Below, in pieces: positions 1,692-58,515 of a DNA stretch of 64,000 bases; position 1 is the stretch's first letter, and the number at the start of each line of letters is the position of its first letter. This stretch comes from Theodoxus fluviatilis (taxonomy: Eukaryota > Mollusca > Gastropoda > Cycloneritida > Neritidae). The DNA is taken from NCBI GenBank assembly GCA_034096865.1, contig JAWQFJ010000612.1, forward strand, positions 34,535 through 98,534, read 5' to 3'. A program made the position numbers and the translations under genes. The notes under the pieces are model-generated. The model was not told the DNA's origin, made no database searches, and was given only the letters and a program-made list of their open reading frames with translations.

Positions 1692-1699
1692 GTGACGTC

Positions 1700-15539: not shown

Positions 15540-15600
<61 letters not shown>

Positions 15601-16186: not shown

Positions 16187-16188
16187 AC

Positions 16189-16206: not shown

Positions 16207-16236
16207 CTGAGTGCTAAAGCAGGACAGATTTCCACC

Positions 16237-18446: not shown

Positions 18447-19072
18447 TGTAGAAGGGCACTCTCTCTCTCTCTCGCTATCTCTGTTTATCATGTGCGTTTT
18501 CTTCCTGGCTCTGGCTGGCTGCATTTTGACCTGGCTTTTGACCTCTGGCCATGTCAAAACAACGCTGACCAGAGGTGCAGCTATGGGTCAGCCTCTCTTA
18601 TCTGTAGGGGTATCGCAGACGGTCAGGCCATCAGCACATAAACTGCCTCCACCATTGTCCGTTGGTTTTAATTCTACCATTGTTGTGCTAATGGTAATTG
18701 ACCCATTCTTCTGTTAATGGTAATGCCCCTATTGTTCTGTTGATTTTAATTAGAATGTAGTGCTTTGATTAGTGTTGTTGTTGTGATAGAGCTGAGCTCC
18801 CTGCATGCTGGGGAGCAGATGTGTTTGGAGTGGGAGACCGCTCAGGAGAGGCGAGCAGAGCAGACGTGCCTGTCTTGCAGTCTCGCTCGGTCTCCAAGTT
18901 TGTGCGAGCTAGAATAAAACATGTACCCTTCACCAAAAGAACCCGGGTTTGTCCTGCTAAACGGAGTTTGTCCTGCTACATTGGAGTAGAGAGATGTTCC
19001 CCTCTCTATAGCTCCAAGCCCTACGCCTGCAATGTGCCACCTATTCCACAGCGCTCGGATCACTCCTTTTCA
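18447..19072 (+). repeat. 3' LTR of gag-only retrotransposon
   Basis: 626-bp near-identical copy of 15521-16186, shorter mainly because its CT run is contracted. It starts TGTAGAAGGG and ends TTTTCA. No matching target-site duplication is seen: the left flank ends ACCAG and the right flank begins TCAGG. Confidence 0.85.
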
Positions 19073-19293: not shown

Positions 19294-19867
19294 CGACACG
19301 GCGGTGTGGAGTCCAGGATGCCCTCTACCTGCAAGGTGAGGCCCACACGGCGGTGTGGAGTCCAGGATGCCCTCTACCTGCAAGGTGAGGCCCACACGGC
19401 GGTGTGGAGTCCAGGATGCCCTCTACCTGCAAGGTGAGGCCCACACGGCGGTGTGGAGTCCAGGATGCCCTCTACCTGCAAGGTGAGGCTCACACGGCGG
19501 TGTGGAGTCCAGGATGCCCTCTACCTGCAAGGTGAGGCCCACACGGCGGTATGGAGTCCAGGATGCCCTCTACCTGCAAGGTGAGGCCCACACGGCGGTG
19601 TGGAGTCCGGGAGGCCCTCTACCTGCAAGGTGAGGCCCACACGGCGGTATGGAGTCCAGGAGGCCCCCTACCTGCAAGGTAAGGCCCACACGGCGGTATG
19701 GAGTCCAGGAGGCCCTCTACCTGCAAGGTGAGGCCCACACGGCGGTATGGAGTCCAGGATGCCCTCTACCTGCAAGGTGAGGCCCACATGGCGGTGTGGA
19801 GTCCAGGATGCCCTCTACCTGCAAGGTGAGGCCCACACGGCGGTGTGGAGTCCAGGATGCCCCCTAC
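19294..19867. repeat. Minisatellite, 49-bp unit, about 12 copies; carries UNC80 splice donor
   Basis: Units of 49 bp. On the minus strand each has CCTCACCTTGCAG followed by GTAGAGGGC. The true end of the adjacent UNC80 exon (19868) reads CCTCACTTCGCAG then GTAGGGGGC. Each unit is therefore a diverged copy of the last 13 exon bases plus the 5' splice site and intron start. Confidence 0.9.
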
Positions 19868-20041
19868 CTGCGAAGTGAGGTACTTGATGATGGGCGGGTC
19901 CTCTCTAACAGGCTTGGGCTTGTCGTCCTTCTTCCAGTTGTTCAGCTTCAGCTTGGTCATGGACACGTCCGTCTTGATCTTCTCCAGCAGCGGTGTGCTC
20001 TCGCGCCGTCGTGCGGGGCTCGTGATCTGGAAAATGGATTC
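19868..20041 (-). CDS. UNC80: UNC80 exon O (last visible)
   Basis: 174 bp, phase 0 to phase 0. The acceptor is GTTGTTTCAG/GAA and the donor is TCGCAG/GTAGGG. It encodes [20 protein letters not shown], then [20 protein letters not shown] and [10 protein letters not shown]. In vertebrate UNC80 a KYIRLQ sequence at this point precedes the conserved VMSLSPAP block; no exon for that block was found further left. Both splice sites are copied in neighbouring repeats. Confidence 0.9.
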
Positions 20042-23000
20042 CTGAAACAACAGCACTCCTCGGGTTAAGGGGGAAGGTGGAACAAAATGTGACACTACAC
20101 CTACACCTGATCTGGTTCATTGCAGTCCTGACAAAGCCACACTCTTCAGGTTAAGGGGGAAGGTGGAACAAGGTGTGATACTCTACCTACATCTGATGTG
20201 GTTAAACTGCAGTCCTGAAAATTCGACACTCCTCACACTATGGGGGATTCCATTTGCTGTAATGGAGTGCATTTTTCGTCACGTCAATTAAAGGTTCCCA
20301 GCCAATTTCTTTCAGAAAAAGTCCCAACTCAAAAGATCTCAGCTGAAGCGTGTCTTGCCAGCAAGACTGCCAGAAGCCTTATGAAGGACATCCCACCACT
20401 GGCCATTTGGCTGACCATTGGTGGCCACAACAGCAATGTACAGTCGGACACAGCAAGGAAACAGCAATGTCCAGTGTGACACAGCAGGGAAACAGCAATG
20501 TACAGTCGGACACAGCAAGGAAACAGCAATGTACAGTGTGTCACAGCAAGGAAACAGCGATGTCTAGTCTTACAGCAAGGAAACAGCAAAGTCCAGCCTG
20601 TCTGACAGCAAGGGAATAGCTCTGTACAGTCGGACACAGCAAGGAAACAGCAAAGTCCAGCCAGTCTGACCGCAAGGAACTAGCTGTGTACAGTCGGACA
20701 CAGCAAGGAAACAGCAATGTCCAATCTTTCTGACACAGCAAGGAAACAGCAATGTCCAGTCTGACAGCAAGGAAACAGCAATGCTCAGTCTTTCTGACAC
20801 AGCAAGGAAACAGCAATGTCCAATCTGACAGCAAGGAAACAGCAATGTCCAGTCTTTCTGACACAGCAAGAAAAGAGCAATGTCCAGTCTGACACAGCAA
20901 GGAAACAGCCATGTCCAGCCAGTCTGACACAGCAAGGAAACAGCAACGTCCCGTCTGACACAGCAAGGAAACAGCAATGTCCAGCCAGTCTGACACAGCA
21001 AGGAAACAGCAACGTCCAGTCTGACACAGCAAGGAAACAGCAATGTCCAGCCAGTCTGACAGCAAGGAAACAGCAACGTCCAGTCTGACACAGCAAGGAA
21101 ACTGCAATGTCATGTCTGTCTGATACAGCAATGAAGCAGCAATGTCCTGTCTGTCTGATACAGCAAGGAAACAGCAATGTCCTGTCTGTCTGATACAGCA
21201 AGGAAACAGCAATGTCCTGTCTGTCTGATACAGCAAGGAAACAGCAATGTCCAGCCAGTCTGACAGCAAGGAAACAGCAGTATCCAGCCAGTCCGACAGC
21301 AAGGAAACAGCAATGTCCTGCCTGTTTGACACAGCAAGGAAACAGCAATGTCCTGCCTGTCTGATACAGCAAGGAAACAGCAATGTCCTGTCTGTCTGAC
21401 ACAGCAAGGAAACAGCAATGTCCTGTCTGTCTGATACAGCAAGGAAACAGCAATGTCCAGCCAGTCTGACAGCAAGGAAACAGCAGTATCCAGCCAGTCC
21501 GACAGCAAGGAAACAGCAATGTCCTGCCTGTCTGACACAGCAAGGAAACAGCAATGTCCTGCCTGTCTGATACAGCAAGGAAACAGCAATGTCCTGTCTG
21601 TCTGACACAGCAAGGAAACAGCAATGTCCTGTCTGTGTGATACAGCAAGGAAACAGCAATGTCCTGTCTGTCTGACACAGCAAGGAAACAGCAATGTCCT
21701 GCCTGTCTGACACAGCAAGGAAACAGCAATGTCCTGTCTGTCTGATACAGCAAGGAAACAGCAATGTCCTGTCTGTCTGACACAGCAAGGAAACAGCAAT
21801 GTCCTGTCTGTCTGATACAGCAAGGAAACAGCAGTGTCCAGCCATTCTGACAGCAAGGAAACAACAATGTCCAGCCTGACAGCAAGGAAACAGCAATGTC
21901 CAGCCAGTCTGACAGCAAGGAAACAGCAATGTCCTGTCTGTCTGATACAGCAAGGAAACAGCAATGTCCTGTCTGTCTGATACAGCAAGGAAACAGCAAT
22001 GTTCTGTCTGTCTGATACAGCAAGGAAACAGCAACGTCCTGTCTGACACAGCAAGGAAACAGCAATGTCCAGCCAGTCTGACACAGCAAGGAAGCAGCAA
22101 TGTCCAGTCTGACACAGCAAGGAAACAGCAATGTCCAGTCTGACACAGCAAGGAAACAGCAATGTCCAGCCAGTCTCACACAGCAAGGAAACAGCAACGT
22201 CCAGTCTAACACAGCAAGGAAACAGCAGAGGACCTACCCTGCGTTTGAGCTTCTCACGGAACGTGTCCTTCTTGACGTCGCTCTTGGAGTCCTGGCGCCC
22301 GTCCTCCTCCGTGGAGTGGTACACCTTGCGCAGCGCCGAGATCAGGCGCGAGCAGCTGCGGCGCTGCCGCTCGTAGCAGTTGGGGTGGCAGTAGTTCTGG
22401 TGCGTGCAGATGAAGTTGGAAAGGTTGGCCAGCTGCACCACCACCTGTGCGCACGTGGACACACAGAGCCGGCAGTCAGTAAGGGAGCACACGCGCACTG
22501 CTCGACTCTTTTGGGGAATGACCATTGCTAATGCAGAAGCAGCGACGGCAGCATTTTTTGTTTTTTGCTTCACAATGATGTTTACAGTTGCATGTTGTGA
22601 AGATTTTTGCAATGGTTTCCTTGTACGAAGAGTCTATTGAAGAGGTTAAGTAGTCCAACGGAATAGAATCAAATCTGAATAGCAATCTAGATGATGCCGT
22701 TTACCTATCAGTTCTATCAGTTCTCTCTACACAGCACACATCTGCTGCAAACGAAATTACACTGCTAAACCGACCCATACCCTGGAGTATATGGCCTCCA
22801 CATGTGTGAATTTGCCCGACCCTGAAACATGTCTACTCTATTTCTCGTTCTCTTACATATTTTTCTCATTCATCCATCTTCTGATCCCTCACATATTATT
22901 TATATATCACTTACGCATGTTCATTCATCTGTCAGGCCCTCGAAGTCCATCTATCTGTCAATCTCACACACAGGTCCATCTTTCCGTCTCATACACACGT

Positions 23001-24962: not shown

Positions 24963-24994
<32 letters not shown>

Positions 24995-26977
24995 CATCCA
25001 TCTGATCATCACACACACACACGTCCATCCATCTGTCTATCACACACACACACGTCCATCCATCTGTCCATCACACACACACGCACGTCCAACCATCTGT
25101 CCATCACACACACACACGTCCATCCATCTGTCCATCACATACACACACGTCCAACCATCTGTCCATCACACACACACGTCCGTCGATCTGTCCATCACAC
25201 ACACACGTCCATCCATCTGTCCATCACACACACACACACGTCCATCCATCTGTCCATCACACACACACACACGTCCAACCATCTGTCCATCACACACACA
25301 CACGTCCATCCATCTGTCCATCACACACACACGTCCATCCATCTGTCCATCACACACACACACACACGTCCAACCATCTGTCCATCACACACACACACAC
25401 ACGTCCAACCATCTGTCCATCACACACACACGTCCATCCATCTGTCCATCACACACACACACACGTCCAACCATCTGTCCATCACACACACACGTCCAAC
25501 CATCTGTCCATCACACACACACACGCGTCCAACCATCTGTCCATCACACACACACGTCCATCCATCTGTCCATCACACACACACACACGTCCAACCATCT
25601 GTCCATCACACACACACACGTCCAACCATCTGTCCATCACACACACACACGTCCATCCATCTGTCCATCACACACACACGTCCACCCATCTGTCCATCAC
25701 ACACACACGTCCATCCATCTGTCCATGACACACACACACGTCCAACCATCTGTCCATCACACACACACACACGTCCAACCATCTGTCCATCACACACACA
25801 CGTCCATCCATCTGTCCATCACACACACACGTCCAACCATCTGTCCATGACACACACACACACACGTCCATCCATCTGTCCATCACACACACACGTCCAT
25901 CCATCTGTCCATCACACACACACACACGTCCAACCATCTGTCCATCACACACACACACACACCCGTCCAACCATCTGTCCATCACACACACACGTCCATC
26001 CATCTGTCCATCACACTTACACGTCCATCCATCTGTCCATCACACACACACGTCCATCCATCTGTCCATCACACACACACGTCCATCCATCTGTCCATCA
26101 CACACACACACGTCCATCCATCTGTCCATCACACACACACGTCCATCCATCTGTCCATCACACACACACACACACACGTCCATCCATCTGTCCATCACAC
26201 ACACACACGTTCATCCATCTGTCCATCACACACACACACGTCCATCCATCTGTCCATCACACACACACACACGTCCATCCATCTGTCTATCCTTCACTCA
26301 TCCACGCCTGTCCGTCCACCCGAGACTGACCCTGATCCAGGGCAGGTTTTGACACAGGTGCTCGTCCTCCACCTCCATGTCGCGCTCATTGGGGGACTCC
26401 TGCGTGTCGTCAGACAGCATGGCCACCGACTCCGTGTCCTCGCCGCCCGCCAGCCCAGACTCCTCCTCCACCAGGCGTCCCTCGGACTGCAGCGACTGGC
26501 TGGAGACCTTCCTGGAGCGCAGGCTGTCCTTCTGCTTGATGCCTGCACAGGACACACACACAGCGCGTGCAGTCACGCTCGCAGGCCACAGGGGGAAGCT
26601 GCTTCCACACGCAGGCACGGTAAGCTTGTATGTCTGAGCTTTGAATGCACTTTACACGTCATTACACGAGATTACTGAAGCAAACAACCAGCCACAGTCA
26701 GGCAATGGAAAGAGTTACGCATTCTGTCTGGAAAGCGAAATAAATTGTCTTAATTCCAAACTAGATTTGTCCATATCATACTAGAAAAGCAATTTGGTTT
26801 TAGAACAAACTTCCACTCCAATGTACTTTTGGCGTGGAAGAAACAACGACTATTAACTTTTTAAAATACATCTGATGACTTTCAGGTTTGACCAGCTTCA
26901 TCGCCCATTGCAAAGAAATGGTAAGAGCATGAGATTCCTACATTATAAGTCGCCATCTTCCCACAGGATATAGACGG

Positions 26978-27012
<35 letters not shown>

Positions 27013-30000
27013 TGTGTGTGCGTGTACGTGTGTTTATGTGTGTGCGTGAAATAGGGACCTCATAGAGGCACATGGCACTGCAGTGAGCCAACACCTGCAG
27101 ACCAAAGGGCAAAGGGCAAAGGTCAAGGACTGTACTCACTGCCTCCCCCTCCTTCGGGCCGCTTCAGCTTGAAGCTGCGGTTGTGGCGGAAGCTGATGTT
27201 GGGGCCTGAGCCGCGGCGGATCTGCCTGAGTAGGTTGGTCCTGCCCTGGGCCAGTCTCCGCCCTGCACACGGGGGAACAGTGGCAGTGAGAGTCTTGGAC
27301 ATGTACTCTTCTACCGTGGCACTCATGCATGCCACAGGTGTATGTCCACAGGTATGGAACAGTGGCAGTGAGAGTCTTGGACATGTACGCCTCTACCATG
27401 GCACAATGCATGCCACAGGTGTATTTCCACAGGTGGCAGTGAGAGTCTTGGACATGTACTCCTCTACCGTGGCACTAAGGCATGCCACAGGTGTGTGTCC
27501 ACAGGTAGGGAACAGTCATGGCAGTGAGATAGTTGGAGGTGTACCTGTCTACCATGGCACTCACAGTCACACTACAGGTGTGTGTCCACAGATAGGGAAC
27601 AGTCGTGGCACTGAGATTGCTGGACGTGTACCCGTCTACCATGACACTCAGAGTCATCTTGCACCTGTATGTCAAGCAAGAAAAAAATATCCATCTTTGT
27701 GGTTTTGAAAAAAAAAGTCTATAGTGTATTCAATGCTATGATTATTTTTAAAGGAAGGTTGTCGGAGACAACAGCATGATGTGTGAGGCTGAGGAGTCAG
27801 TTGCCGAGAAGAGGAATACAGCACTACCCATGGAAAGAGCGGGACACTCACCCCTCTCCTTCTTCTCCTCGGGCTGGGGGTCCAGGTTGGGAATGGAGGT
27901 GGTGGAGCTGTGGATGGAGTCGGACCGCTCCGTCAGCACCGCGAAGCTGATCTTCCTGTCGCTGGGGCTACCCACCGGCACTGCGGCAGCGCGACAAGGG
28001 CGTGGGTGCAAGATTTGTTCGGGTTTTCACATTCAGAAGATGAAAACTACACACTAAGTAAACACAGAAAGATCATCAGAGGTCGGCAGCATTTACTCAA
28101 GTACCAGCACCGGCATCCAGAACGAGGAGACCTCTCACTGGAGTCTGGGAGCAGGCCAGGCCCCACGAAGTCACTTTCTACCAATCACACAAGTGCATCA
28201 TTCTCTTCCGAAAGCAACCAGCCACTAATTCTGACAACAATTCCGTTCCACAGCTCTGATAGAGACACTGGAGGCTCACTCGAGTAAACATCCATTGTAA
28301 ATGTTTAGTTTCAAAGGCGATTTATTGCTATTTATATCGAAATACTGCAGACTCACAGAAGTGCATATCACTTCATCATAAATGACTGTCTCCAAAGGCA
28401 ATCCCTAGCCATTATTATTTAAAAAAACAAACAGGAGAATCACGGGAGCATACATTAATCTATCATAAAAGACTATTTCCATAGACAGTCTCTACCTATC
28501 TTCAAAACACTGGAATCTCACTAAACATCAACTCATCACAGACTAATTTATCCAAGGCAGTCCCTAGCTGTCTACACAACATTGGCGACTCACTGGAATA
28601 TACATCACTTTATTATAAAATGTTTTTCACAGACTGTCCCTAACTATCTTCAAAACACTGGGATCTCACTGAGATTCAACCCAGCATGAATAATTTATCC
28701 AAGGACAGTCTCTAGCAAGCTCTAGAACACTGCGACTGACTGGAGTACACATCAGTCCATCATGAAAAGACTGTTTCCAACATCATAAAAACTGTTTCCA
28801 AGGACAGTCCCTAGCAATCTCTAGAACACTGCGACTGACAAGAGTACACATGAGTCCATCATGATAAGACTGTTTCCAAGGACAGTCCCTAGACGCCTCT
28901 AAAGTACTGCACTCACTGGATCCCTGGGGCAGGTCGGGTCCCATGGAGTCCATGCTCTTGTCCGAGTGGCCGGGGCTGCTGACGATGGAGCTGAAGCGCC
29001 GTGTGGTGGTGCCACTCTTCTCCCAGATGTGGTCGCGCTTCTGGCCGCGCGACTTGGGCAGGTACTGCAGGGTCTCCCTCAGGAAGGTGGTGATCTCCAT
29101 CAGCACAAGGCAGCCCAGCATCTTCAGCGCGTAGGGGCACTCCGTCCCACCGGCGTTGACGGAACCTGCAGTGAAGGGAGGGGAGGTAGAGGAAGTAATG
29201 GTCGGGTCTCATCCACCTTTCTTCCTGGGGAAGTGAATGGAATGCAGGCAGCGAGTGTGCAAAGGACCAGATAGAGAAGAAATAAGGAAGAGAGAGAAAG
29301 TTGGCGTGGGGCAAGGAGAATGCGATAGAAGGAAAAGTGTAGGGTGACAGGAGGAGGGACAGAAAGAAAAGGGGGAACTTGGAAGAAGAAAAGGAGAAAA
29401 AAGAAGTAAAAAGAAAAAGTCAGCGGATTTAGCATTAGTCAAGGGGGATGAACTGACGACGACAAAAAGAGTGAGAATGAATGGATGGATGGATGGATGG
29501 ATGGATGGATGGATGGATGGATGGATGGATGGATGGATGGATGGATGGATGGATGGATGGATGGATGGATGGATGGATGGATGGATGGATGGATGGATGG
29601 ATGGATGGATGGATGGATGGATGGATGGATGGATGGATGGATGACTGACTGAATGAGTGAATCCACTTCATTTGACCAGAACACTGAATTACGAAGAAAT
29701 GCACATCTTTCATTAAGCCCTTGATCACACACATTTACACTACAACAGAAAAGAGAACGTAACATAGCAGGATTGACAGAAGGAAGAAAGGACAGACGAG
29801 CTCACTTTCATCCAGGAAGTCTTCCTCCTCGTCCTCCAGCCGCAGCTCCTTGCGTTTGTTCTCGTCCTTGACCTCATTCAGGATGGCCAGGCGGTCCGCA
29901 TGCTCCTTGGCCAGGATGTACTCCAGCTGGCTGCCCAGGTTCTGCAGGCACAAAACGGCAACACTGACTTCTGATCTGGGCTGCAAAGGAACCAGGATGT

Positions 30001-30556
30001 ACTCCAGCTGGCTGCCCAGGTTCTGCAGGCACAAAACGGCAACATTGACTTCTGATCTGGGCTGCAAAGGAACCAGGATGTACTCCAGCTGGCTGCCAAG
30101 GTTCTGCAGGCACAAAACGGCAACACTGGCTTCTGATCTGAGCTGCAAAGGAACCAGATGTACTCCAGCTGGCTGGCCAGGTTCTGCAGGCACAAAACGG
30201 CAACACTGACTTCTGCTCGGGGCTGCAAAAGAACCAGGATGTCTATCCGATCCATTCACCCATCTACAAAAGTGAAAAAAGCTGCAACTGCCTGGAAGTA
30301 AACAAGGTTTGTGACAGGATGCACTGCAGCAGACTGGCCAGGGTCTCCATACAGACGAACAACAGCAAAGCCCGCGTGGCGTGGAGCGCAAAGCTGTCAC
30401 TCCACAACAGCCACGATCAAAGGAGACAAGACATCAAAAATCCGGAGAATGAGATACAGTACGAAAGACTGCAAATCAACTCAAAGTTCTGTAGATTTGA
30501 AGGGGAACAACGACTAACTAGTTCTTAATGCAAGGGGAAAATTTACAACTGTACTC

Positions 30557-30624
<68 letters not shown>

Positions 30625-31853: not shown

Positions 31854-31898
<45 letters not shown>

Positions 31899-46800: not shown

Positions 46801-49800
46801 CTGTTGTCAGTGCCTGCCTTGTTGTTGTTGTCAGTGCCTGCCTTGTTGTTGTTGTCAGTGCCTGCCTTGTTGTTGTTGTCAGTGCCTGCTTTGTTGTTGT
46901 TGTCAGTGCCTGCCTTGTTGTTGTTGTCAGTGCCTGCCTGCCTTGTTGTTGTTGTCAGTGCCTGTCTTGTTGTTGTTGTCAGTGCCTGCCTAGTTGTTGT
47001 TGTCAGTGCCTGCCTTGTTGTTGTTGTCAGATCCTGCCTGCCTTGTTGTTGTTGTCAGTGCCTGCCTTGTTGCTGTTGTCAGTGCCTGCCTTGTTGTTGT
47101 TGTCAGTGCCTGCCTTGTTGTTGTTGTCAGTGCCTGCCTTGTTGTTGTTGTCAGTGCCTGCCTTGTTGCTGTTGTCAGTGCCTGCCTTGTTGTTGTTGTC
47201 AGTGCCTGCCTTGTTGTTGTTGTCAGTGCCTGCCTTGTTGTTGTTGTCAGTGTCTGCCTTGTTGTTGTTGTCAGTGCCTGCCTTGTTGTTGTTGTCAGTG
47301 CCTGCCTTGTTGTTGTTGTCAGTGCCTGCCTTGTTGTTGTTGTCAGTGTCTGCCTTGTTGTTGTTGTTGTCAGTGTCTGCCTGCCTTGTTGTTGTTGGGG
47401 TCAGTGCCTGCCTTGTTGTTGTTGTCAGTGTCTGCCTTGTTGTTGTTGTTGTCAGTGCCTGCCTGCCTTGTTGTTGTCGGGGTCAGTGCCTGCCTTGTTG
47501 TTGTTGTCAGTGTCTGTTTATTGTTGTTGTCAGTGCCTACCTTGTTGTTGTTGTCAGTGCCTGCCTTGTTGTTGTTGTCAGTGTCTGCCTTGTTGTTGTT
47601 GTCAGTGCCTGCCTTGTTGTTGTTGTCAGTGTCTGCCTTGTTGTTGGTGTCAGTGCCTGCCTTGTTGTTGTTGTCAGTGCCTGCCTTGTTGTTGTTGTCA
47701 GCGTTTGCCTTGTTGTTGTTGTCAATGCCTGCCTTGTTGTTGTTGTCAATGTCTGCCTGCCTTGTTGTTGGTGTCAGTGCCTGCGTTGTTGTTGTTGTCA
47801 GTGCCGGCCTACCTTTTTCTTGACGTTGCGCTTGAAGATGGAGCGACGCGACTTCTCGCCGCTGTGACGGCGGGCGGCTGGTGTCTCGTCCCCGTTGCTG
47901 ACCAGGGAACTCCGGTGTCCCTCTCGCTCGTCCCCGCTCTCTGACGTCACAGACGTCGTCCGCCTGTCACGTGACAGAATGCACTGCTCGTGACTGGGTC
48001 AAGGCATTGCGTTTATAGACAGACAAACAGTGGTCACAGCACACAGACACATAGTAGTTCACAGCACACAGACACAGAGATGTTCACAGCACACAGACAC
48101 AGTGGTTCAGAGCACACAGACACAGTGGTTCACAGCACACATACACAGAGATGTTCACAGCACACAGACACAGTGGTTCACAGCACACAGACACAGTGGT
48201 TCACAGCACACAGACAAACACTGGTTCACAGCAAACAGTGGTTCACAGCACACAGACAAACAGTGGTTCACAGCACACAGTGGTTCACAGCACACAGACA
48301 CACTGGTTCACAGCACACAGACACAGTGGTTCACAGCACACACACTGGTTCACAGCACACAGACACAGTGGTTCACAGCACACAGTGGTTCACAGCACAC
48401 AGACACACTGGTTCACAGCACACAGACACAGTGGTTCACAGCACACAGACACAGTGGTTCACAGCACACAGACACACACTGGTTCACAGCACACAGACAC
48501 ACTGGTTCACAGCACACAGACACATTGGTTCACAGCACACAGACACACACTGGTTCACAGCACACAGTGGTTCACAGCACACAGACACATTGGTTCACAG
48601 CACACAGACACATTGGTTCACAGCACACAGACACACAGTGGTTCACAGCACACAGACACACACTGGTTCACAGCACACATTGGTTCACAGCACACAGACA
48701 CATTGGTTCACAGCACACAGACACATTGGTTCACAGCACACAGACACACATTGGTTCACAGCACACAGACAAACAGTGGTTCACAGCACACAGACACACA
48801 CTGGTTCACAGCTGTGGCGGACCTAACCCTGAATTATAGTTCTTATGTGTGAAATGTCTACCTTGTGTTATATTCCCAATGCGTTTTTTGAAAACGCGAT
48901 CGAGTTGGCTGTAAGCTGCTGAAGCCGTTAACAGGGCTGGGGAAAACGCCTACGTGACGGCGTCCTATTTTTGGGCTGAGTGCAGCGCGAGGTCAGGTGG
49001 ACTCGAAGCTTTTCCCCCTGCTCTGTTGTCTGGGAATCACAGACAAAGAGTGGTTCACAGCACACAGACAAACAGTGCTTCACAGCACACAGACACACAC
49101 TGGTTCACAGTACACAAAGAGTGGTTCACAGCACACAGACAAAGTGGTTCACAGCACACAGACAAAGTGGTTCACAGCACACAGACACACAGTGGTTCAC
49201 AGCACACAGAAACAGTGGTTCACAGCACACAGACAAACACTGGTTCACAGTACACAGTGGTTCACAGCACACAGACAAACAGTGGTTCACAGCACACAGA
49301 CAAAGTGGTTCACAGCACACAGACACACAGTGGTTCACAGCACACAGACTGGTTCACAGCACACAGACAAAGAGTGGTTCACAGCACACAGACAAACAGT
49401 GCTTCACAGCACACAGACACACACTGGTTAACAGTACACACAGACTGGTTCACAGCACACAGACACAGTGGTTCACAGCACACAGACTGGTTCACAGCAC
49501 ACAGACACAGTGGTTCACAGCACACAGACTGGTTCACAGCACACAGACACAGTGGCTCACAGCACACAGACTGGTTCACAGCACACAGACACAGTGGTTC
49601 ACAGCACACAGACTGGTTCACAGCACACAGACACAGTGGTTCACAGCACACAAACTGGTTCACAGCACACAGACACAGTGGTTCACAGCACACAGACTGG
49701 TTCACAGCACACAGACACAGTGGTTCACAGCACACAGACTGGTTCACAGCACACAGACACAGTGGTTCACAGCACACAGACAGCGGGCAAGGGTTCTAGC

Positions 49801-52800: not shown

Positions 52801-55800
52801 CGTACAGACAGACCGTTGTTATGAACTCAAGCTGTGCCAGCGTACAAACAGACCTTTGTTATGAACATAAGCTGTGCCAGCGTACAGACAGACCTTTGTT
52901 ATGAACTCAAGCTGTGCCAGCGTACAGTAGCCCTTTGTTATGAACTCAAGCTGTGCCAGCGTACAGACAGATCTTTGTTATGAACTCAAGCTGTGCCAGC
53001 GTACAGACAGACCTTTGTTATGAACTCAAGCTGAGACAGCGTACAGACAGACCGTTGTTATGAACTCAAGCTGAGACAGCGTACAGACAGACCTTTTTTA
53101 TGAACTCAAGCTGTGCCAGCGTACAGACAGACCTTTGTTATGAACTCAAGCTGTGCCAGCGTACAGACAGACCTTTGTTATGAACTCAAGCTGTGCCAGC
53201 GTACAGACCGACCTTTGTTATGAACACAAGCTGTGCCAGCGTACAGACAGATCTTTGTTATGAACTCAAGCTGTGCCAGCGTACAGTAGCCCTTTGTTAT
53301 GAACTCAAGCTGTGCCAGCGTACAGACAGACCTTTGTTATAAACTCAAGCTGAGCCAGCGTACAGACAGACCTTTGTTATGAACAAGCTGTGCCAGCGTA
53401 CAGTAGGTAGCCCTTTGTTATGAACTCAAGCTGTGCCAGCGTACAGTAGCCCTTTGTTATGAACTCAAGCTGTGCCAGCGTACAGACAGACCGTTGTTAT
53501 GAACTCAAGCTGTGCCAGCGTACAGACAGACCGTTGTTATGAACTCAAGCTGAGACAGCGTACAGACAGACCTTTGTTATGAACTCAAGCTGTGCCAGCG
53601 TACAGACAGACCTTTGTTATGAACTCAAGCTGTGCCAGCGTACAGCAAGACCTTTGTTATGAACTCAAGCTGTGCCAGCGTACAGACAGACCGTTGTTAT
53701 GAACTCAAGCTGTGACTCGAGGCCCCAAACAAACCAATCAGAAGGCACACAAGGAGAATAGCCACAGACCAGAATGGAGGACAGACCCCAGGGACGTATA
53801 TACAACATCTCTGGTAGAAGCGGATGACACTCTACAGACATGCGGGGAACAGCAACTGATGTACTGAATGACGTACATTACAGGCAGGATGGTGCAAGAT
53901 CGGATTCGAGGACAGAGCCACTGACAAAAGACGGCAACCTGTGGAAATGGGAAACCTTTGACACGGACACACATGGAACTGTACCTGATGGAACTGAAAG
54001 ACAGACACCCTGTGGAAATGAAAAGCTGATGACGAGGACACACACAGAACTGGTGCCTGATGGGATCAAACGACAGATACACAGAGGGAAGACAGTAAGT
54101 TCCCTTTGGAATGTGATGTGTTGACAGGAACACACCAGTACACGTAGCCCGGTACCTGATGGGAGTGGAGGGCAGACAGAAAGACTACAGCACTGTGTGT
54201 GGTACCTGATGGGACTGGAGGGCAGACAGAAAGACTACAGCACTGTGTGGTACCTGATGGGACTGGAGGGCAGACAGAAATACTACAGACCTCTGTGTGG
54301 TACCTGATGGCAGTGGAGGGAAGACAGAAAGACTACAGCACTGTGTGTGGTACCTGATGGGACTGGAGGGCAGACAGAAATACTACAGACCTCTGTGTGG
54401 TACCTGATGGGAGTGGAGGGAAGACAGAAAGGTTACAGCACTGTGTGGCACCTGATGGGACTGGAGGGAAGACAGAAAGGTTACAGCACTGTGTGGCACC
54501 TGATGGGACTGGAGGGAAGACAGAAAGACTACAGCACTGTGTGGTACATGATGGGAGTGGAGGGCAGACAGAAAGACTACAGCACTCTGTGTGGTACCTG
54601 ATGGGAGTGGAGGGCACAGCACTATGTGTGGTACCTGATGGGAGTGGAGGGCACAGCACTATGTGTGGTACCTGATGGGAGTGGAGGGCAGACAGAAAGA
54701 CTACAGCACTCTGTGTGGTACCTGATGGGAGTGGAGGGCAGACAGAAAGACTACAGCACTCTGTGTGTGGTACCTGATGGGAGTGGAGGGAAGACAGAAA
54801 GACTACAGCACTCTGTGTGGTACCTGATGGGACTGGAGGGCAGACAGAAAGACTACAGCACTGTGTGTGGTACCTGATGGGAGTGGAGGGCAGACAGAAA
54901 GACTACAGCACTCTGTGTGGTACCTGATGGGAGTGGAGGGCAGACAGAAATACTACAGCACTCTGTGTGGTACCTGATGGGAGTGGAGGGCAGACAGAAA
55001 GACTACAGCACTGTGTGGTACCTGATGGGAGTGGAGGGCAGACAGAAAGACTACAGCACTGTGTGTGGTACCTGATGGGAGTGGAGGGAAGACAGAAAGA
55101 CTACAGCACTGTGTGTGGTACCTGATGGGAGTGGAGGGCAGACAGAAAGACTACAGCACTGTGTGGTACCTGATGGGACTGGAGGGCAGACAGAAAGACT
55201 ACAGCACTGTGTGGTACCTGATGGGAGTGGAGGGCAGACAGAAAGACTACAGCACTGTGTGTGGTACCTGATGGGAGTGGAGGGAAGACAGAAAGACTAC
55301 AGACCTCTGTGTGGTACCTGATGGGAGTGGAGGGAAGACAGAAAGACTACAGACCTCTGTGTGGTACCTGATGGGAGTGGAGGGAAGACAGAAATACTAC
55401 AGACCTCTGTGTGGTACCTGATGGGAGTGGAGGGAAGACAGAAATACTACAGACCTCTGTGTGGTACCTGATGGGAGTGGAGGGCAGACAGAAAGACTAC
55501 AGCACTGTGTGGTACATGATGGGAGTGGAGGGCAGACAGAAATACTACAGACCTCTGTGTGGTACCTGATGGGACTGGAGGGCAGACAGAAAGACTACAG
55601 CACTCTGTGTGGTACCTGATGGGAGTGGAGGGCAGACAGAAATACTACAGACCTCTGTGTGGTACCTGATGGGACTGGAGGGCAGACAGAAATACTACAG
55701 ACCTCTGTGTGGTACCTGATGGGACTGGAGGGCAGACAGAAAGACTACAGCACTATGTGTGGTACCTGATGGGACTAGAGAGCAGCCAGAAAGACTACAG

Positions 55801-56777
55801 CACTCTATGTGTGGTATCTGATGGGACTGGAGGGCAGACAGAAAGACTACAGCACTGTGTGGTACCTGATGGGACTGGAGGGCAGACAGAAAGACTATAG
55901 CACTGTGTGTGGTACCTGATGGGACTGGAGGGCAGACAGAAAGACTACAGCACTATGTGTGATACCTGATGGAAGTGGAAGGCAGACAGAAAGACTAGAG
56001 CACTGTGAGTGGTACCTGATGGGACTGGAGGGCAGACAGAAAGACTACAGCACTATGTGTGGTACCTGATGGAAGTGGAGGGCAGACAGAAAGACTACAG
56101 CACTGTGTGGTACCTGATGGAAGTGGATGGCAGACAGAAAGACTACAGCACTATGTGTGGTACCTGATGGGACTGGAGGGCAGACAGAAAGACTACAGCA
56201 CTATGTGTGGTACCTGATGGGAGTGGAGGGCAGAAAGAAAGATTACAGCACTGTGTGTGGTACCTGATGGGAGTGGAGGGCAGACAGAAAGACTACAGCA
56301 CTGTGTGGTACCTGATGGGACTGGAAGGCTTGGACAGCCGCTCCTTTTCCTTCTCCACGGCCTGGCGCCGCAGCTTGAGCATGGAGTCCAGCAGTCCGCT
56401 CAGCGCGATGCGTCTGAAGGTGCCGCCATGCACCTCCTTGACGTAGGCCATCAGCTGCCGCACGTCGCAAAACAGGCCCTGCAACAACGTCACGTAATAC
56501 AGACCCTGCAACAACGTCACGTAATACAGACCTTGCAACAACGTCACGTAATACAGACCCTGCAACAACGTCACGTAATACAGACCCTGCAACAACGTCA
56601 CGTAATTCAGACCCTGTATGGAATCATGCTTCCTTTAAATGGCTGTGATAAGTGGTAGCTGACCACCTCGGAGAGTGGCAGGTGGTGAAACTGATTAATA
56701 GCGTTGGGACTAAGAGATACCGAGGAAGACGGGACTGAGGGAACTAAGTGGTTTCTTGGTTTGTTCTTATTGCTGCT

Positions 56778-56812
<35 letters not shown>

Positions 56813-58515
56813 CTGTCTTGTCTCTGTCCTACGTCACTTTCTTAATTACGTCAGAGTCCGTAGTGTTAAAACACACAGCAATGACAGGCAAGCAGTGCTT
56901 CCAATGTTTTATGTCCGTAGTGTTAAAACACACAACAGTGACAGTCAAGCAGTGGTTACGATGTTTTATGTCCGTAGTGTTAAAACACACAGCAATGACA
57001 GGCAAGCAGTGCTTCCGATGTTTTATGTCCGTAGTGTTAAAACACACAGCAGTGACAGTCAAGCAGTGCTTACGATGTTTTGTGTCGGTAGTGTTAAAAC
57101 ACACAGCAATGACAGGCAAGCAGTGCTTGCGATGTTTTATGTTCGTATTGTTAAAACACACAGCAATGACAGGCAAGCAGTGTTTACGATCTTTTGTGTC
57201 CGTAGTGTTAAAACACACAGCAATGACAGTCAAGCAGTGCTTACGATGTTCTCGTGTCCGTAGTGTTCAAACACACAGCAGTGACAGTCAAGCAGTGCTT
57301 ACGATGTTTAGTGTCCGTAGTGTTAAAACACACAGCAATGACAGGCAAGCAGTGCTTACGATGTTCTCGTGTCCGTAGTGTTCAAACACACAACAGTGAC
57401 AGTCAAGCAGTGCTTCCGATGTTTAGTGTCCGTAGTGTTAAAACATACAGCAGTGACAGGCAAGCAGTGCTTACGATGTTCTCGTGTCCGTAGTGTTCAA
57501 ACACACAACAGTGACAGTCAAGCAGTGCTTCCGATGTTTAGTGTCCGTAGTGTTAAAACATACAGCAGTGACAGGCAAGCAGTGCTTACGATGTTCTCGT
57601 GTCCGTAGTGTTAAAACACACAGCAGTGACAGTCAAGCAGTGCTTCCGATGTTTAGTGTCCGTAGTGTTAAAACATACAGCAGTGACAGGCAAGCAGTGC
57701 TTACGACGTTCTCGTGTCCGTAGTGTTCAAACACACAGCAGTGACAGTCAAGCAGTGCTTGCGATGTTTTGTGTAAGTAGTGGTAAAACACACAGCAGTG
57801 ACAGGCAAGCAGTGCTTCCGATGTTTTATGTCCGTAGTGTTCAAACACACAGCAGTGACAGTCAAGCAGTGCTTACGATGTTTTATGTCCGTAGTGTTCA
57901 AACACACAGCAGTGACAGTCAAGCAGTGCTTACGATGTTTTGTGTTCGTTCAAACACACAGCAGTGACAGTCAAACAGTGCTTCCGATGTTTTGTGTCCG
58001 TAGTGTTAAAACACACAGCAATGACGGTCAAGCAGTGCTTCCGATGTTTTATGTCCGTAGTGTTAAAACACACAGCAGTGACAGGCAAGCAGTGCTTACG
58101 ATGTTTTGTGTCCGTAGTGTTAAAACACACAGCAATGACAGTCAAGCAGTGCTTGCGATGTTTTGTGTCGGTAGTGTTAAAACACACAGCAATGACAGTC
58201 AAGCAGTGCTTGCGATGTTTTGTGTCCGTAGTGTTAAAACACACAGCAATGACAGTCAAGCAGTGCTTCCGATGTTTTGTGTCCGTAGTGTTAAAACACA
58301 CAACAGTGACAGGCAAGCAGTGCTTACGATATTCTCGTGTCCGTACAGGTCACCCACGCAGTCCACGCATCTGGTGACGAAGGGCTTGAGCAGGTTCGCC
58401 AGCAGCACGCCCTCCACGCCGCGGTAGCCCTCGCCCCCGATGCTGTGCCCGAAGTTGTTGCTGAAGCCGTTCCTGGGAAGCGTCTCCTGGCTGGCGGACT
58501 TCTTGGTGGGCGGAC
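19868..58515 (-). CDS. UNC80: UNC80, NALCN channel complex subunit (partial, 14-15 exons)
   Basis: UNC80 is a very large cytosolic scaffold that binds NALCN and UNC79 and is needed for the neuronal sodium-leak conductance. Blocks recognisable against the vertebrate protein, in the same order, are [110 protein letters not shown] [21 protein letters not shown] and [19 protein letters not shown]. Fourteen confident exons give about 840 codons with all phases matching. Exons are short (123-249 bp) and the introns are filled with tandem arrays and transposons. The first visible exon is preceded by at least 5.4 kb of intron, and no exon was found after 19868 in the remaining 19.8 kb. The N- and C-terminal parts of the protein are missing from the window. 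Confidence 0.95.
20042..20230. repeat. Two to three imperfect copies of exon O acceptor region
   Basis: Units of about 90 bp share GGTTAAGGGGGAAGGTGGAA and a TCCTGA (minus strand TCAGGA) that corresponds to the exon O 3' splice junction, at about 20040, 20128 and 20214. Confidence 0.65.
20430..22227. repeat. Minisatellite array, about 31-36-bp units, about 55 copies
   Basis: Core ACAGCAAGGAAACAGCAATG followed by a variable TCCAGTCTG, TCCAGCCAGTCTG or TCCTGTCTGTCTG end. On the transcribed strand the core is pyrimidine-rich (TGCTGTTTCCTTGCTGT). It starts ten bases after the exon N donor. Three minus-strand frames stay open for 170-540 codons across it; these are artefacts of the repeat. Confidence 0.95.
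22238..22444 (-). CDS. UNC80: UNC80 exon N
   Basis: 207 bp, phase 0 to phase 0. The acceptor is GTGCGCACAG/GTG and the donor is CGCAGG/GTAGGT. It encodes [20 protein letters not shown], then [20 protein letters not shown]. The Cys/His spacing matches the vertebrate FICTHVDYCHPHCY..SCARL block, possibly a metal-binding or disulphide-free Cys-His cluster. A minisatellite begins about ten bases after the donor. Confidence 0.96.
22445..22880. other. Unique intron sequence between exons M and N
   Basis: Contains the exon N acceptor and branch region. No other gene is seen. Confidence 0.6.
22950..26290. repeat. Minisatellite array, about 28-34-bp units, about 110 copies
   Basis: Core CGTCCATCCATCTGTCCATC (or CCAACCATC variant) followed by an AC run of variable length. 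The 767-codon plus frame over it (23547-25850) has no coding support. The AC run length varies from unit to unit, which indicates slippage nested inside the minisatellite. Confidence 0.95.
26331..26542 (-). CDS. UNC80: UNC80 exon M
   Basis: 212 bp. The acceptor is GTCCTGTGCAG/GC and the donor is ATCAGG/GTCAGT (less usual +4 to +6 context). It enters with two bases and ends in phase 0. It encodes [20 protein letters not shown], an acidic linker, then [12 protein letters not shown], which matches vertebrate NYHRNMSWL just before FICTH. A (TGGAC/TGTG)n-rich array begins about 40 bp into the intron. Confidence 0.93.
26980..27028. repeat. (TG)n microsatellite in intron L
   Basis: TG run with CG interruptions between exons L and M. 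Confidence 0.85.
27140..27262 (-). CDS. UNC80: UNC80 exon L
   Basis: 123 bp. The acceptor is CCGTGTGCAG/GG and the donor is GGAGGCA/GTGAGT. It enters with two bases and leaves with one. It encodes [20 protein letters not shown], then [15 protein letters not shown], an arginine-rich segment that parallels the vertebrate KIRIGGSRLLQIKGTRSFQVK region. Confidence 0.92.
27274..27668. repeat. Minisatellite, about 80-bp unit, 4-5 copies
   Basis: Imperfect units sharing GGCAGTGAGAGTCTTGGACA, a CTCTACC block and GCCACAGGTGT. It begins about 10 bp from the exon L acceptor. No clear copy of the acceptor itself is present in the units. Confidence 0.8.
27852..27980 (-). CDS. UNC80: UNC80 exon K
   Basis: 129 bp. 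The acceptor is GCTGCCGCAG/TG and the donor is GAGAGGG/GTGAGT. It enters with two bases and leaves with one. It encodes [20 protein letters not shown], then [20 protein letters not shown]. The RKISF and EEKK motifs align with vertebrate UNC80 (ERKISFAGVL, VEEKKV). Confidence 0.93.
28270..28916. repeat. Old degenerate array next to exon J donor, about 100-bp units
   Basis: Six to seven diverged units sharing ACAGTCCCTA, CTAGAACACTG and CATCA motifs. On the minus strand several contain donor-like sequence matching the exon J end (CCA/GTGAGTGCAG): CCA/GTGAGTCGCC near 28592, TCA/GTGAGATCC near 28668 and CGA/GTGAGCC near 28278. Confidence 0.7.
28917..29165 (-). CDS. UNC80: UNC80 exon J
   Basis: 249 bp. 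The acceptor is CTTCACTGCAG/GT and the donor is GATCCA/GTGAGT. It enters with two bases and leaves with one. It encodes [20 protein letters not shown], then [16 protein letters not shown] and [13 protein letters not shown], matching vertebrate CPFALKM and [11 protein letters not shown]. The second half is a variable serine-rich linker. Confidence 0.96.
29479..29643. repeat. (ATGG)n microsatellite
   Basis: About 41 near-perfect ATGG units in the intron between exons I and J. Confidence 0.97.
29806..29941 (-). CDS. UNC80: UNC80 exon I
   Basis: 136 bp. The acceptor is TGTGCCTGCAG/AAC and the donor is GATGAAA/GTGAGC. It starts in phase 0 and ends with one base. It encodes [20 protein letters not shown], then [17 protein letters not shown], matching the vertebrate [15 protein letters not shown] stretch. 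The first 30 exon bases with the acceptor are repeated three more times upstream (29942-30240). Confidence 0.95.
29942..30240. repeat. 81-bp repeat spanning exon I acceptor, three extra copies
   Basis: Copies of CTGCAGGCACAAAACGGCAA start at 29942, 30023, 30104 and 30184. Each is preceded on the plus strand by the complement of the first 30 exon bases. The 81-bp unit is 27 codons, so the minus-strand frame is open through all copies and each re-encodes [10 protein letters not shown] before diverging. Confidence 0.93.
30561..30622. repeat. (CT)n microsatellite
   Basis: About 31 CT units directly upstream of the 30700-31671 reading frame. Confidence 0.95.
30700..31671 (+). CDS. Hypothetical protein, probable retroelement ORF, 323 aa
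   Basis: A single uninterrupted frame antisense to UNC80 in the intron between exons H and I. The N-terminal part has [21 protein letters not shown] basic stretch ([19 protein letters not shown]) and a long Ser/Thr/Pro-rich tail with an acidic [17 protein letters not shown] helix follow. No enzyme motif is seen. About 150 bp after the stop are an AATAAA (31830) and a (TTCG)n tail, the usual 3' end of a LINE- or SINE-like insertion. I therefore take it as the ORF of a non-autonomous or truncated retroelement. A host gene is less likely. Confidence 0.45.
   Translation: MPVAGFPAAVEVLLSSLLTSDELSSWKVTGEPGGVVVVLRFRPSDGQPLLASHTQRGHWRRKPPAQLRRDQLRAQRHRTLGETAHFLNFAKHDDKITANNICDQMTDASRSPRASTSSPCPTTTLTFDPPSQTTIVAKKAVLSEEIDESVMQTDLSPDDASTSATVSKGHPSEEDEWMRAFDARFEAAHAAGIECWRQERKKTDTGGGNTGATSTMDPGEDPEETPPLAECSPAMVPSVDNSTSKPARSTRQTRPPSSAEFPTTTAASLRGTQQLTARQDSSDSVSCNTGSTRVTRSRPSTNPARNAHTARKPETFRTFGRRK
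31845..31896. repeat. (TTCG)n-(CT)n tail
   Basis: About five TTCG units then about 20 CT units, ending four bases from the exon H 5' splice site (the plus strand reads CTTAC at 31894-31898). Confidence 0.9.
31899..32114 (-). CDS. UNC80: UNC80 exon H
   Basis: 216 bp, phase 0 to phase 0. The acceptor is GTCCCCACAG/GAA and the donor is GCTGAG/GTAAGA. It encodes [20 protein letters not shown], then [11 protein letters not shown] and [14 protein letters not shown]. This is the most strongly conserved block in the window (vertebrate FVHRCNRGNWPEWMK, AAKLFYQWG). The intron continues as pure (GA)n from position +5, so the donor itself borders a microsatellite. Confidence 0.96.
32115..32584. other. 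Unique intron between exons G and H
   Basis: Apart from exon-flanking splice signals no feature is seen. Confidence 0.5.
32587..32603. repeat. Poly-C tract near exon G donor
   Basis: Homopolymer of C followed by a short CA run, 25 bp from the exon G donor. Confidence 0.9.
32628..32812 (-). CDS. UNC80: UNC80 exon G
   Basis: 185 bp. The acceptor is CTCGTGTTAG/AT and the donor is GATCTG/GTGGGT. It enters with two bases and ends in phase 0. It encodes [20 protein letters not shown], then [18 protein letters not shown], a clear match to the vertebrate UNC80 block with FLLNCCEPGTIPD. A second GT ten bases downstream (GTGAGA) has a better consensus but would break the frame with exon H. Confidence 0.94.
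32835..34160. repeat. 1.3-kb polypurine (G/A) tract with (GGA)n core
   Basis: Almost pure G and A on the plus strand in large stretches, with a clean GGA run at 34044-34149 and duplicated blocks (33770-33900 resembles 33930-34050). On the UNC80 sense strand it is a polypyrimidine tract upstream of the exon G acceptor. It is capable of triplex or G-quadruplex structures. Long frames (poly-E, poly-S or poly-L) are artefacts. Confidence 0.92.
34161..35283. other. Unique intron sequence, no gene seen
   Basis: No conserved coding exon recognised on either strand. Confidence 0.5.
35284..35470. repeat. 61-bp tandem repeat, three copies
   Basis: Near-identical units with core GGCAAGACGTTACTTGGGTA, at a spacing of 61 bp. 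Confidence 0.93.
35471..37404. other. Unique intron sequence, no gene seen
   Basis: AT-rich. Open frames of 60-190 codons here show no family motif and no splice-phase support. Confidence 0.45.
37405..37500. repeat. 37-bp tandem repeat, about 2.5 copies
   Basis: Units with core GCGCAAGAATGGTGGTGCAC. Confidence 0.9.
37553..37578. repeat. Poly-G tract
   Basis: Uninterrupted run of about 26 G. Confidence 0.95.
39003..39750. repeat. Minisatellite, 34-bp unit, about 22 copies
   Basis: Very homogeneous units with core TATGGCACCGCCACTCTACT then GAGATCA(T/C)TCACGC. The main variant is ATT/ACT. It lies about 200 bp beyond the exon F donor and does not contain that junction. Confidence 0.95.
39959..40186 (-). 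CDS. UNC80: UNC80 exon F
   Basis: 228 bp. The acceptor is GTATCCTCAG/GT and the donor is ACCGATG/GTAATC. It enters with two bases and leaves with one. It encodes [20 protein letters not shown], then [20 protein letters not shown] and [16 protein letters not shown]. The basic part corresponds in position to the vertebrate segment before the conserved FLLNCCEPGT block. It fits exons E and G in phase. Confidence 0.87.
40543..40566. repeat. Poly-G tract
   Basis: About 24 G in the intron between exons E and F. Confidence 0.95.
40844..41255. repeat. 18-bp minisatellite with composite left half
   Basis: The right half (41037-41253) is about 12 copies of CTGTCTACATGGCTCCCT. The left half is three to four copies of a longer unit of about 60 bp that combines two 18-bp units with CCCACTGGTGCACGATGG. 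All three plus frames and a minus frame are open. Confidence 0.95.
41260..42359. other. Unique intron between exons E and F
   Basis: No gene recognised. There is a small poly-G run near 42325 beside the exon E donor. Confidence 0.5.
42360..42513 (-). CDS. UNC80: UNC80 exon E
   Basis: 154 bp. The acceptor is TACGTTTGCAG/TCC and the donor is CAGATCG/GTAGGA. It starts in phase 0 and ends with one extra base. It encodes [20 protein letters not shown], then [14 protein letters not shown] and [11 protein letters not shown], a disordered phospho-site-like linker. The 3' splice site and the first 13 exon bases are repeated in the adjoining array at 42514-42935. The copy used here is assumed to be the last, the only one continuous with unique coding sequence. 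Confidence 0.85.
42514..42935. repeat. 30-bp minisatellite spanning exon E acceptor, about 14 copies
   Basis: On the minus strand each 29-30-bp unit reads CCTGCTTACGTTTGCAG followed by TCCCTGATGTTCC. This is the exon E 3' splice site plus its first 13 bases. With a 10-codon unit the upstream frame ([10 protein letters not shown] repeats) stays open into the exon. Confidence 0.95.
42936..47812. repeat. 4.9-kb minisatellite, about 24-28-bp units, abuts exon D donor
   Basis: Core CAGTGCCTGCCTTGTTGTTG. Unit variants insert TGCC, CTAC or GTTG tetramers. It runs from the edge of the exon E acceptor array to the exon D donor. Variants with CCTACCTTGTTG read CAACAAG/GTAGGCAGGCACTG on the transcribed strand, matching the true exon D donor AAAAAG/GTAGGCCGGCACTG. 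Plus-strand frames up to 1633 codons (leucine/cysteine/valine only) result from the 24-bp period. Confidence 0.96.
47813..47963 (-). CDS. UNC80: UNC80 exon D
   Basis: 151 bp. The acceptor is GTCACGTGACAG/G and the donor is AAGAAAAAG/GTAGGC. The one-base start fits the two-base end of exon B (or C), and it ends in phase 0. It encodes [20 protein letters not shown], then [18 protein letters not shown], a serine/basic disordered segment. Vertebrate UNC80 has a comparable FWRKMFKSQ plus serine-rich region at this point. The acceptor's pyrimidine tract is poor. Confidence 0.75.
48025..49770. repeat. Minisatellite array, about 16-25-bp units, split by unique DNA
   Basis: Core GGTTCACAGCACACAGACAC with variable AC/AGTG length. 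It is interrupted at 48812-49045 by about 230 bp of unique sequence with no recognised exon. From about 49440 the units pair into a regular 41-bp dimer. Confidence 0.95.
49771..49947 (-). CDS. Doubtful UNC80 cassette exon C
   Basis: A unique island of about 180 bp between a foldback element and a minisatellite. One minus-strand frame is open for 59 codons ([20 protein letters not shown], then [16 protein letters not shown]). With acceptor GAGAG/C and donor GTGTGCT/GTGAAC it would enter after two codon bases and leave after two, so it would be phase-neutral. Exon B also joins exon D in phase without it. Both splice sites are weak, the other frames are also open for 30-70 codons, and I see no match to vertebrate UNC80. 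It may be an optional exon or plain intron. Confidence 0.28.
49952..50405. mobile_element. Foldback element with two direct and one inverted subunit
   Basis: Subunits start at CCGCTATTGCGGGATTTTTT (49984 and about 50106, direct) and the reverse complement ends near 50392. The body TTCCTCAGGC..TTTTGATTCTTTTGTCC is shared by all three. The outer ends are GC-rich tandem CTATTGCGG motifs. There is no coding capacity. It directly borders the doubtful exon C, whose candidate acceptor would be formed at the element edge. Confidence 0.75.
50515..53715. repeat. 40-bp minisatellite, about 80 copies, with higher-order structure
   Basis: Unit core GTGCCAGCGTACAGACAGAC then CTTTGTTATGAACTCAAGCT. The first kilobase is almost perfect. 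Diagnostic variants (TTATAAACTC followed by GCCGGCG, then GAACTGAAG) recur exactly 360 bp apart (50787/51147), so a nine-unit block was duplicated. The second half is more diverged, with TACAGTAGCC variants. Confidence 0.97.
53716..54149. other. Spacer between two arrays, partly ancient repeat units
   Basis: Mostly unique, but it contains several diverged pieces like the array to its right (CTGATGGAACTGAAAGACAG, GATGGGATCAAACGACAG), which suggests older relatives of the 54150-56311 unit. Confidence 0.6.
54150..56311. repeat. 48-50-bp minisatellite spanning exon B donor, about 45 copies
   Basis: Unit core GGTACCTGATGGGAGTGGAG then GGCAGACAGAAAGACTACAG. On the minus strand each unit reads CTCCA(C/G)TCCCATCAG/GTACCACAC, equivalent to the true exon B end CTTCCAGTCCCATCAG/GTACCACAC. 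About 45 copies of the 5' splice site follow the real one. Confidence 0.96.
56312..56478 (-). CDS. UNC80: UNC80 exon B
   Basis: 167 bp. The acceptor is GTTGTTGCAG/GGC and the donor is ATCAG/GTACCA. It starts in phase 0 and ends with two bases of a codon. It encodes 55 codons from [10 protein letters not shown] through [16 protein letters not shown] to SKPSSPI. This continues directly the conserved vertebrate block with CDIRQL, FRRVALSALLDS. It is flanked on both sides by arrays whose units copy its own splice junctions. Confidence 0.93.
56479..56610. repeat. 27-bp repeat spanning exon B acceptor, about 5 copies
   Basis: CTGCAACAACGTCACG recurs every 27 bp from 56479. On the minus strand each unit ends GTTGTTGCAG followed by GGTCTGTATTACG, a diverged copy of the exon start GGCCTGTTTTGCG (10 of 13 bases). 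Confidence 0.9.
56780..56810. repeat. Poly-C tract
   Basis: About 31 C in the intron between exons A and B. Confidence 0.95.
56855..58327. repeat. 57-58-bp minisatellite spanning exon A donor, about 26 copies
   Basis: Core GTCCGTAGTGTTAAAACACA then CAGCAGTGACAG and CAAGCAGTGCTTACGATGTT. On the minus strand units read TACGGACACGAGAACATC/GTAAGCACTGC, nearly identical to the exon A end TACGGACACGAGAATATC/GTAAGCACTGC. Between 57238 and 57720 the units form 115-bp dimers. Confidence 0.96.
58328..58515 (-). CDS. UNC80: UNC80 exon A (first visible)
   Basis: 188 bp. The acceptor is GTCCGCAG and the donor is ATC/GTAAGC. The exon enters with two bases of a split codon and ends in phase 0. It encodes 62 whole codons including [20 protein letters not shown] and [15 protein letters not shown], which match the vertebrate UNC80 block containing GFGNNF and LITRC. 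An alternative donor inside CTGTAC would cut the conserved end. The chosen donor also fits the phase of the next exon. Confidence 0.9.

Follow-up and report, generated by a model that had tools for sequence, protein, structure and literature searches.

Minisatellites that span exon–intron junctions in the UNC80 gene of the gastropod Theodoxus fluviatilis

Introduction

The introns of the UNC80 gene of Theodoxus fluviatilis are rich in repeat arrays, and several of these arrays raise the question of how a minisatellite comes to include the end of an exon together with its splice site. An earlier interpretation made from the DNA letters alone (the sequence-only reading) proposed that such arrays arose by local duplication across splice sites, that they leave many decoy splice sites in the gene, and that the phenomenon belongs to no named class. 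We analysed the locus in a window of 64,000 nucleotides, positions 34535–98534 of a 114-kb contig in a 965-Mb assembly. Our data indicate that these arrays are probably junction minisatellites, known as mirages in amphioxus and as exon stuttering in birds, which were locally duplicated across splice junctions and then expanded.

The class therefore already has names. As excerpted, PMC3087553 describes minisatellite-like duplications of intron–exon boundaries in amphioxus globin genes, which were named mirages after work on Adh and apparently leave regular splicing undisturbed. The excerpts of PMC3902484 add mirages in PGBD5 and mention troponin C. In the excerpted text of PMC12954441 (2026), exon stuttering is reported for 236 introns of the chicken, of which dot chromosomes carry 190; among other vertebrates the authors found it only in a group of gerbil genes, and they can only speculate on its mechanism.

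The UNC80 exons

The minus strand of the window carries 14 exons of a gastropod UNC80 gene (A, B and D–O; Table 1). Exon positions come from tblastn searches with UNC80 proteins of gastropods combined with GT–AG sites and phase continuity; they were assigned by hand and then checked. When joined, they form 839 codons without a stop, and the resulting protein of 839 amino acids is 76% identical to that of Haliotis over 846 columns and 67–73% identical to ten other gastropod proteins. The best single-exon match in the search with gastropod UNC80, 94% over one exon of 72 amino acids, was also to Haliotis. The exons match UNC80 chains in PDB, and gastropod UNC80 proteins match far better. On the same contig, 13 more UNC80 exons (P–AB) lie below the window and two, one of them incomplete, lie above it, giving 29 placed exons. 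The donor of exon X (contig position 4168) belongs to a GC–AG intron and is the sole non-GT donor among them.

The exon letters follow the order from 58515 downwards with one spurious 'C', which we infer to be the scheme of the sequence-only reading because it reproduces the lists of that reading exactly. Exon C was rejected; no UNC80 residues are missing between B and D, and the position of about 49.8 kb is a guess. Elsewhere in intron B–D, window positions 49921–50500 contain interspersed short repeats around CCGCAATAGCGG.

Table 1. UNC80 exons and junction-spanning arrays in the window (window positions; exon bases identical in the best copy are given in parentheses).
Feature	Position	Strand	Unit (bp)	Copies	Exon nt (identical)	Remark
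Exon A	58328..58515	-				tblastn + GT-AG + phase
A donor array	56856..58345	-	57	26	18 (17)	
Exon B	56312..56478	-				tblastn + GT-AG + phase
B acceptor array	56472..56616	-	27	5	13 (10)	
B donor array	54151..56329	-	50	~45	18 (17)	genome match only at own locus
Exon D	47813..47963	-				tblastn + GT-AG + phase
D donor array	42926..47810	-	24		10 (8)	weak
Exon E	42360..42513	-				tblastn + GT-AG + phase
E acceptor array	42501..42929	-	30	14	16 (15)	abuts D array
Exon F	39959..40186	-				without junction array
Exon G	32628..32812	-				without junction array
Exon H	31899..32114	-				without junction array
Exon I	29806..29941	-				tblastn + GT-AG + phase
I acceptor array	29911..30242	-	81	4	31 (31)	
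Exon J	28917..29165	-				99-bp array 28698-28879 ends 37 nt short of donor
Exon K	27852..27980	-				without junction array
Exon L	27140..27262	-				without junction array
Exon M	26331..26542	-				large array 22993-26291 begins 39 nt from donor
Exon N	22238..22444	-				35-bp array 20443-22227 begins 10 nt from donor
Exon O	19868..20041	-				tblastn + GT-AG + phase
O acceptor duplication	20054..20235	-	86	2	19 (14)	decayed; weak
O donor array	19296..19880	-	49	12	13 (11)	genome match only at own locus

Arrays at exon edges

Tandem Repeats Finder (TRF) returned 70 rows in the window, many of which overlap. Junctions were tested by aligning 45 exon bases and 45 intron bases locally to the adjacent intron, with at least 6 bases required on each side. 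Junction-spanning copies were found at 8 of the 28 window junctions, four donors (A, B, D and O) and four acceptors (B, E, I and O), and their best copies include 10–31 exon bases plus the splice site. The sequence-only reading had named the same eight junctions, and in addition a decayed array at the J donor. No spanning copy was found at that donor in either the window or the contig alignment, the nearby 99-bp array stopping outside the exon; by eye, some homology may reach the donor. Six of the window cases are strong, and the D donor and the O acceptor are weak. At the O acceptor the alignment spans the junction, but the TRF edge is 12 nt outside the exon.

On the whole contig, where a stricter score was used, 10 of 57 junctions gave a match. 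The match at the AA donor was discarded as a run of GT dinucleotides, and the nine that stand comprise four donors and five acceptors. The ninth UNC80 case is the acceptor of exon P, outside the window on the same contig (59-bp unit; 25 of 28 exon bases identical in the best copy). Neither shuffled introns nor one randomly chosen other intron per junction gave any match (0/57 in each control).

Arrays cover about 64% of the 36.8 kb of intron. Between 19294 and 58515, 59% of bases lie in arrays of period at least 15, compared with 9% in 20 blind 10-kb stretches. Upstream of exon A, a 22-bp array of about 188 copies (window 59022–63160) lies at no mapped junction.

Excess over random placement

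The number of overlaps expected by chance was estimated with a model in which each array was collapsed to one unit and placed randomly in the remaining intron, with limited exon overlap allowed. The set consisted of 22 arrays of period at least 15, merged by hand from TRF rows in the introns of the window and in the stub that follows exon O; it included two-copy arrays, apart from a few short rows. Eight of the 22 arrays span a junction, against 0.78–1.54 expected (P from 0 to 6e-5 over five settings; typically about 0.9 expected, P about 5e-6), in a model that uses present array limits and collapsed introns and leaves unique intron sequence already lost unaccounted for. The six strong cases alone gave P values of 1e-4 to 3e-3 (about 2e-4). 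In the 26 UNC80 introns on the contig, 9 of 44 arrays span a junction and 0.64 are expected. The 14 arrays downstream of exon P include no such case (0.24 expected), and the excess is therefore located in the window and at the P acceptor.

If duplications were seeded uniformly and tolerated at junctions, about 0.6–0.9 overlaps would be predicted, fewer than observed. Seeding may be favoured near exon edges, or exons may be barriers where arrays accumulate. Under the second model, arrays may start at any place in an intron and extend outwards by repeated duplication and exchange until purifying selection on the exon halts them; they would accumulate at that edge, where exon bases are captured and then homogenised through the array. 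It is consistent with the finding that 8 of the 44 arrays stop short of a junction by no more than 40 nt, where 1.4 are expected. It is also consistent with intron D–E, in which two abutting arrays leave about 2 bp uncovered.

Origin of the repeat units

Copy counts of splice dinucleotides could rest on intron bases alone, and the exon part of each unit was scored separately for this reason. Copies were anchored by the intron part alone, and their exon part was compared with the 99th percentile of random places. Among the further copies, the exon part exceeded this level in 22 of 25 at the A donor, 41 of 41 at the B donor and 11 of 11 at the O donor, and at the acceptors in 4/4 (B), 13/13 (E), 3/3 (I) and 3/5 (P, ungapped). 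The D donor is weak because only 17 of its 107 copies exceeded it; the O acceptor, which has one further, diverged copy, stood outside this test. The presence of the exon part in nearly all copies indicates that the founding duplications of the strong arrays straddled the junctions. The exon parts also encode residues conserved in other gastropods, which makes the exons the source of the arrays rather than their product. Searches of the genome, which skip simple repeats and very common words, returned results for two array regions, the B donor array and the O donor region, and both matched their own locus only. The proposal of local duplication across splice sites is thus supported.

The same data argue against late capture at a barrier. 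Exon-derived bases occur in nearly every copy of the A, B, E, I and O donor arrays, and late capture predicts a gradient along the array unless homogenisation is complete. Identity to the junction copy showed no significant trend with distance in five of the seven arrays tested, the I array having too few copies for this analysis. It rises in the D array. In the P array it falls (rho -0.89, P 0.019), and in the E array it tends likewise (rho -0.49, P 0.09), as the barrier model would have it. We find it rather unlikely that the barrier model accounts for these arrays.

Introner elements place many splice-like ends in introns. The junction arrays described here are many and all have a splice site at one edge, and a mobile element of this type could be suspected. 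It is scarcely conceivable as the source, since the eight units compared share no match longer than 10 bp, in agreement with the earlier statement that units differ from junction to junction, and since the two regions searched genome-wide match only themselves. Unlike introners, the snail units are mutually unrelated and of local origin.

The sequence-only reading also saw a possible example of a step in intron gain. According to the excerpts of PMC4974935 and PMC3443670, the Rogers model of intron gain likewise involves a tandem duplication with splice signals. The version considered for this locus is tandem duplication of an exonic AGGT segment. The O donor unit contains CAG|GTAG, and intron D–E is made of arrays alone, both of which would suit this model. 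The model requires the same unit at both ends of the intron, whereas A–B, D–E and O–P carry different units at their two ends. Therefore, none of these introns looks born from one tandem duplication, in contrast to the Rogers model as excerpted no tested intron is bounded by copies of one unit, and intron gain is a very improbable explanation of the locus.

Decoy splice sites and reading frame

The claim that the gene contains many decoy splice sites was confirmed. With the junction copy counted throughout, GT occupies the splice position in 44 of the 45 B donor copies and in all 12 O donor copies. The A donor copies have GT in 13 of 26, GG in 9 and GC in 4, and the 63 D donor copies that match the junction probe include 13 with GT and 48 with GC. 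At the acceptors, AG is kept in 14/14 (E), 4/4 (I), 6/7 (P) and 4/5 (B) copies; one copy was found at the O acceptor. A PWM trained on UNC80 marked 138 decoys as near-genuine, a number inflated by the B donor, which accounts for 91 of them and whose own site scores -0.2.

It could be argued that the arrays are functional, the extra splice sites aiding recognition of exons in repeat-filled introns or supplying in-frame alternative extensions. The acceptor units of B, E and I are 27, 30 and 81 bp long, and upstream of these exons the reading frame stays open across the entire array; the nearly complete retention of GT at the B donor would also fit a function. However, the frame is not open through the acceptor arrays of P (59 bp) and O (86 bp), all four donor arrays reach a stop after 4–33 codons, and the 54-bp unit of a myosin array described below has an in-frame stop by eye. 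Unit length is a multiple of three in 5 of 9 junction arrays and in 8 of 35 others (P 0.098, or P 0.049 with the myosin case). The in-frame idea fits the acceptors of B, E and I, not those of O and P, and is only a hint. The idea that arrays accompany weak splice sites was rejected; array junctions seemed weaker when scored with a PWM built from the remaining UNC80 junctions, but with a PWM from myosin junctions they did not differ in strength from junctions lacking arrays (P 0.70 and 0.90). A function is thus improbable. The arrays are presumably neutral, and homology suggests that the exon-proximal copy is the one that is spliced.

Comparison with myosin genes

A myosin-head search gave 70 exon matches in the genome, from which six loci with 26 exons were sampled; 49 of their 52 junctions were testable. 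Splice sites were chosen automatically by PWM, some of them low-scoring, and inspection of the sequence led to manual shifts of the sites in loci L031 and L032. One of the 49 junctions is spanned, against a rough expectation of about 0.4, which is no clear excess, and shuffled introns gave no spanning arrays. The single positive is the acceptor of L031, which was set by hand; 11 of 14 exon bases are identical. Junction arrays are therefore present in at least two genes of this genome, UNC80 and myosin, and their excess over chance is shown for UNC80 only. The expectation that arrays overlap junctions more often than random placement allows is borne out in UNC80 and not in the myosin sample.

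In myosin locus L029, a 28-bp array of about 7 copies (917–1122), most of them with TTTTGCAG, ends exactly at the acceptor AG, and this acceptor was uncounted because it had no spanning match. An array in L032 ends about 19 nt short of the acceptor, which was assigned by eye. Loci L034 and L035 (5 exons), outside the 49 junctions, have no spanning array by eye.

A wider hypothesis is that a process coupled to transcription or splicing, for example R-loops or paused polymerase at splice sites, actively directs founding duplications to exon edges, and that this process is common to molluscs, lancelets and birds. Junction minisatellites would then be a general outcome of unstable introns and a standing supply of in-frame exon extensions. 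We consider this hypothesis unlikely. Since junction arrays are rare in the myosin sample, the data do not show a genome-wide seeding bias.

Relation to mirages and exon stuttering

The history of local duplication followed by expansion may be outlined as follows. A short tandem duplication, with units of 24–86 bp, would arise locally across an exon–intron junction. The copy that adjoins the exon would retain the coding sequence and a working splice site, so that the duplication would escape removal by selection. Slippage and unequal exchange may then enlarge the array, from 2 to about 190 copies, until it fills much of the intron.

The original paper on mirages is reportedly that of Canestro and colleagues in 2002. 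The UNC80 arrays resemble amphioxus mirages, as excerpted in PMC3087553 and PMC3902484, in being tandem repeats across 5' or 3' splice junctions, at donors as well as acceptors and in several unrelated genes, with units of tens to about 160 bp and AG or GT retained in many copies. In UNC80 the unit spans the boundary and includes exon bases at 9 of 57 junctions (two of them weak; controls 0/57), four donors and five acceptors are affected, and the AG or GT signal is kept in many copies. Relative to those excerpts the present case differs in that it comes from a gastropod, affects 9 junctions of one gene and reaches about 190 copies. It shares with avian exon stuttering the local nature of the exon-edge copies (0/57 in the other-intron control, and the own-locus matches of the B donor and O donor regions) and the heavy coverage of introns by repeats. 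Unlike stuttering as described in the excerpts of PMC12954441, it occurs in a mollusc, its units are fairly regular minisatellites, and no chromosome class is tied to it here.

No mollusc case of junction minisatellites was found in the open-licence PMC literature. A 27-bp intron minisatellite has been published for an abalone gene, and the excerpted text does not place it on a junction. What is new here is the mollusc lineage, the density, and the crowding of array edges just outside exons. Mirages have been described gene by gene in lancelets and avian stuttering was reported only in 2026; the dense snail case suggests that the phenomenon may recur where introns are rich in minisatellites. 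It extends to a third, distant lineage the question of whether mutation bias starts duplications at junctions or they only survive there. The arrays also provide natural tests of splice-site choice where many nearly identical sites lie next to one another.

Other features of the intron between exons O and P

Intron O–P of UNC80 is 32.8 kb long and contains a single-exon open reading frame on the opposite strand (window 1691–3301, plus strand) with the Pfam domains BTB, BACK and Kelch_1. The same intron has two direct repeats of 300 nt that are 98% identical (window 15573–15872 and 18459–18758). Between them lies an open reading frame (16126–17184) that had no Pfam match and shows a CCHC-like knuckle by eye. 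The repeats and this reading frame look like an LTR element inside the intron.
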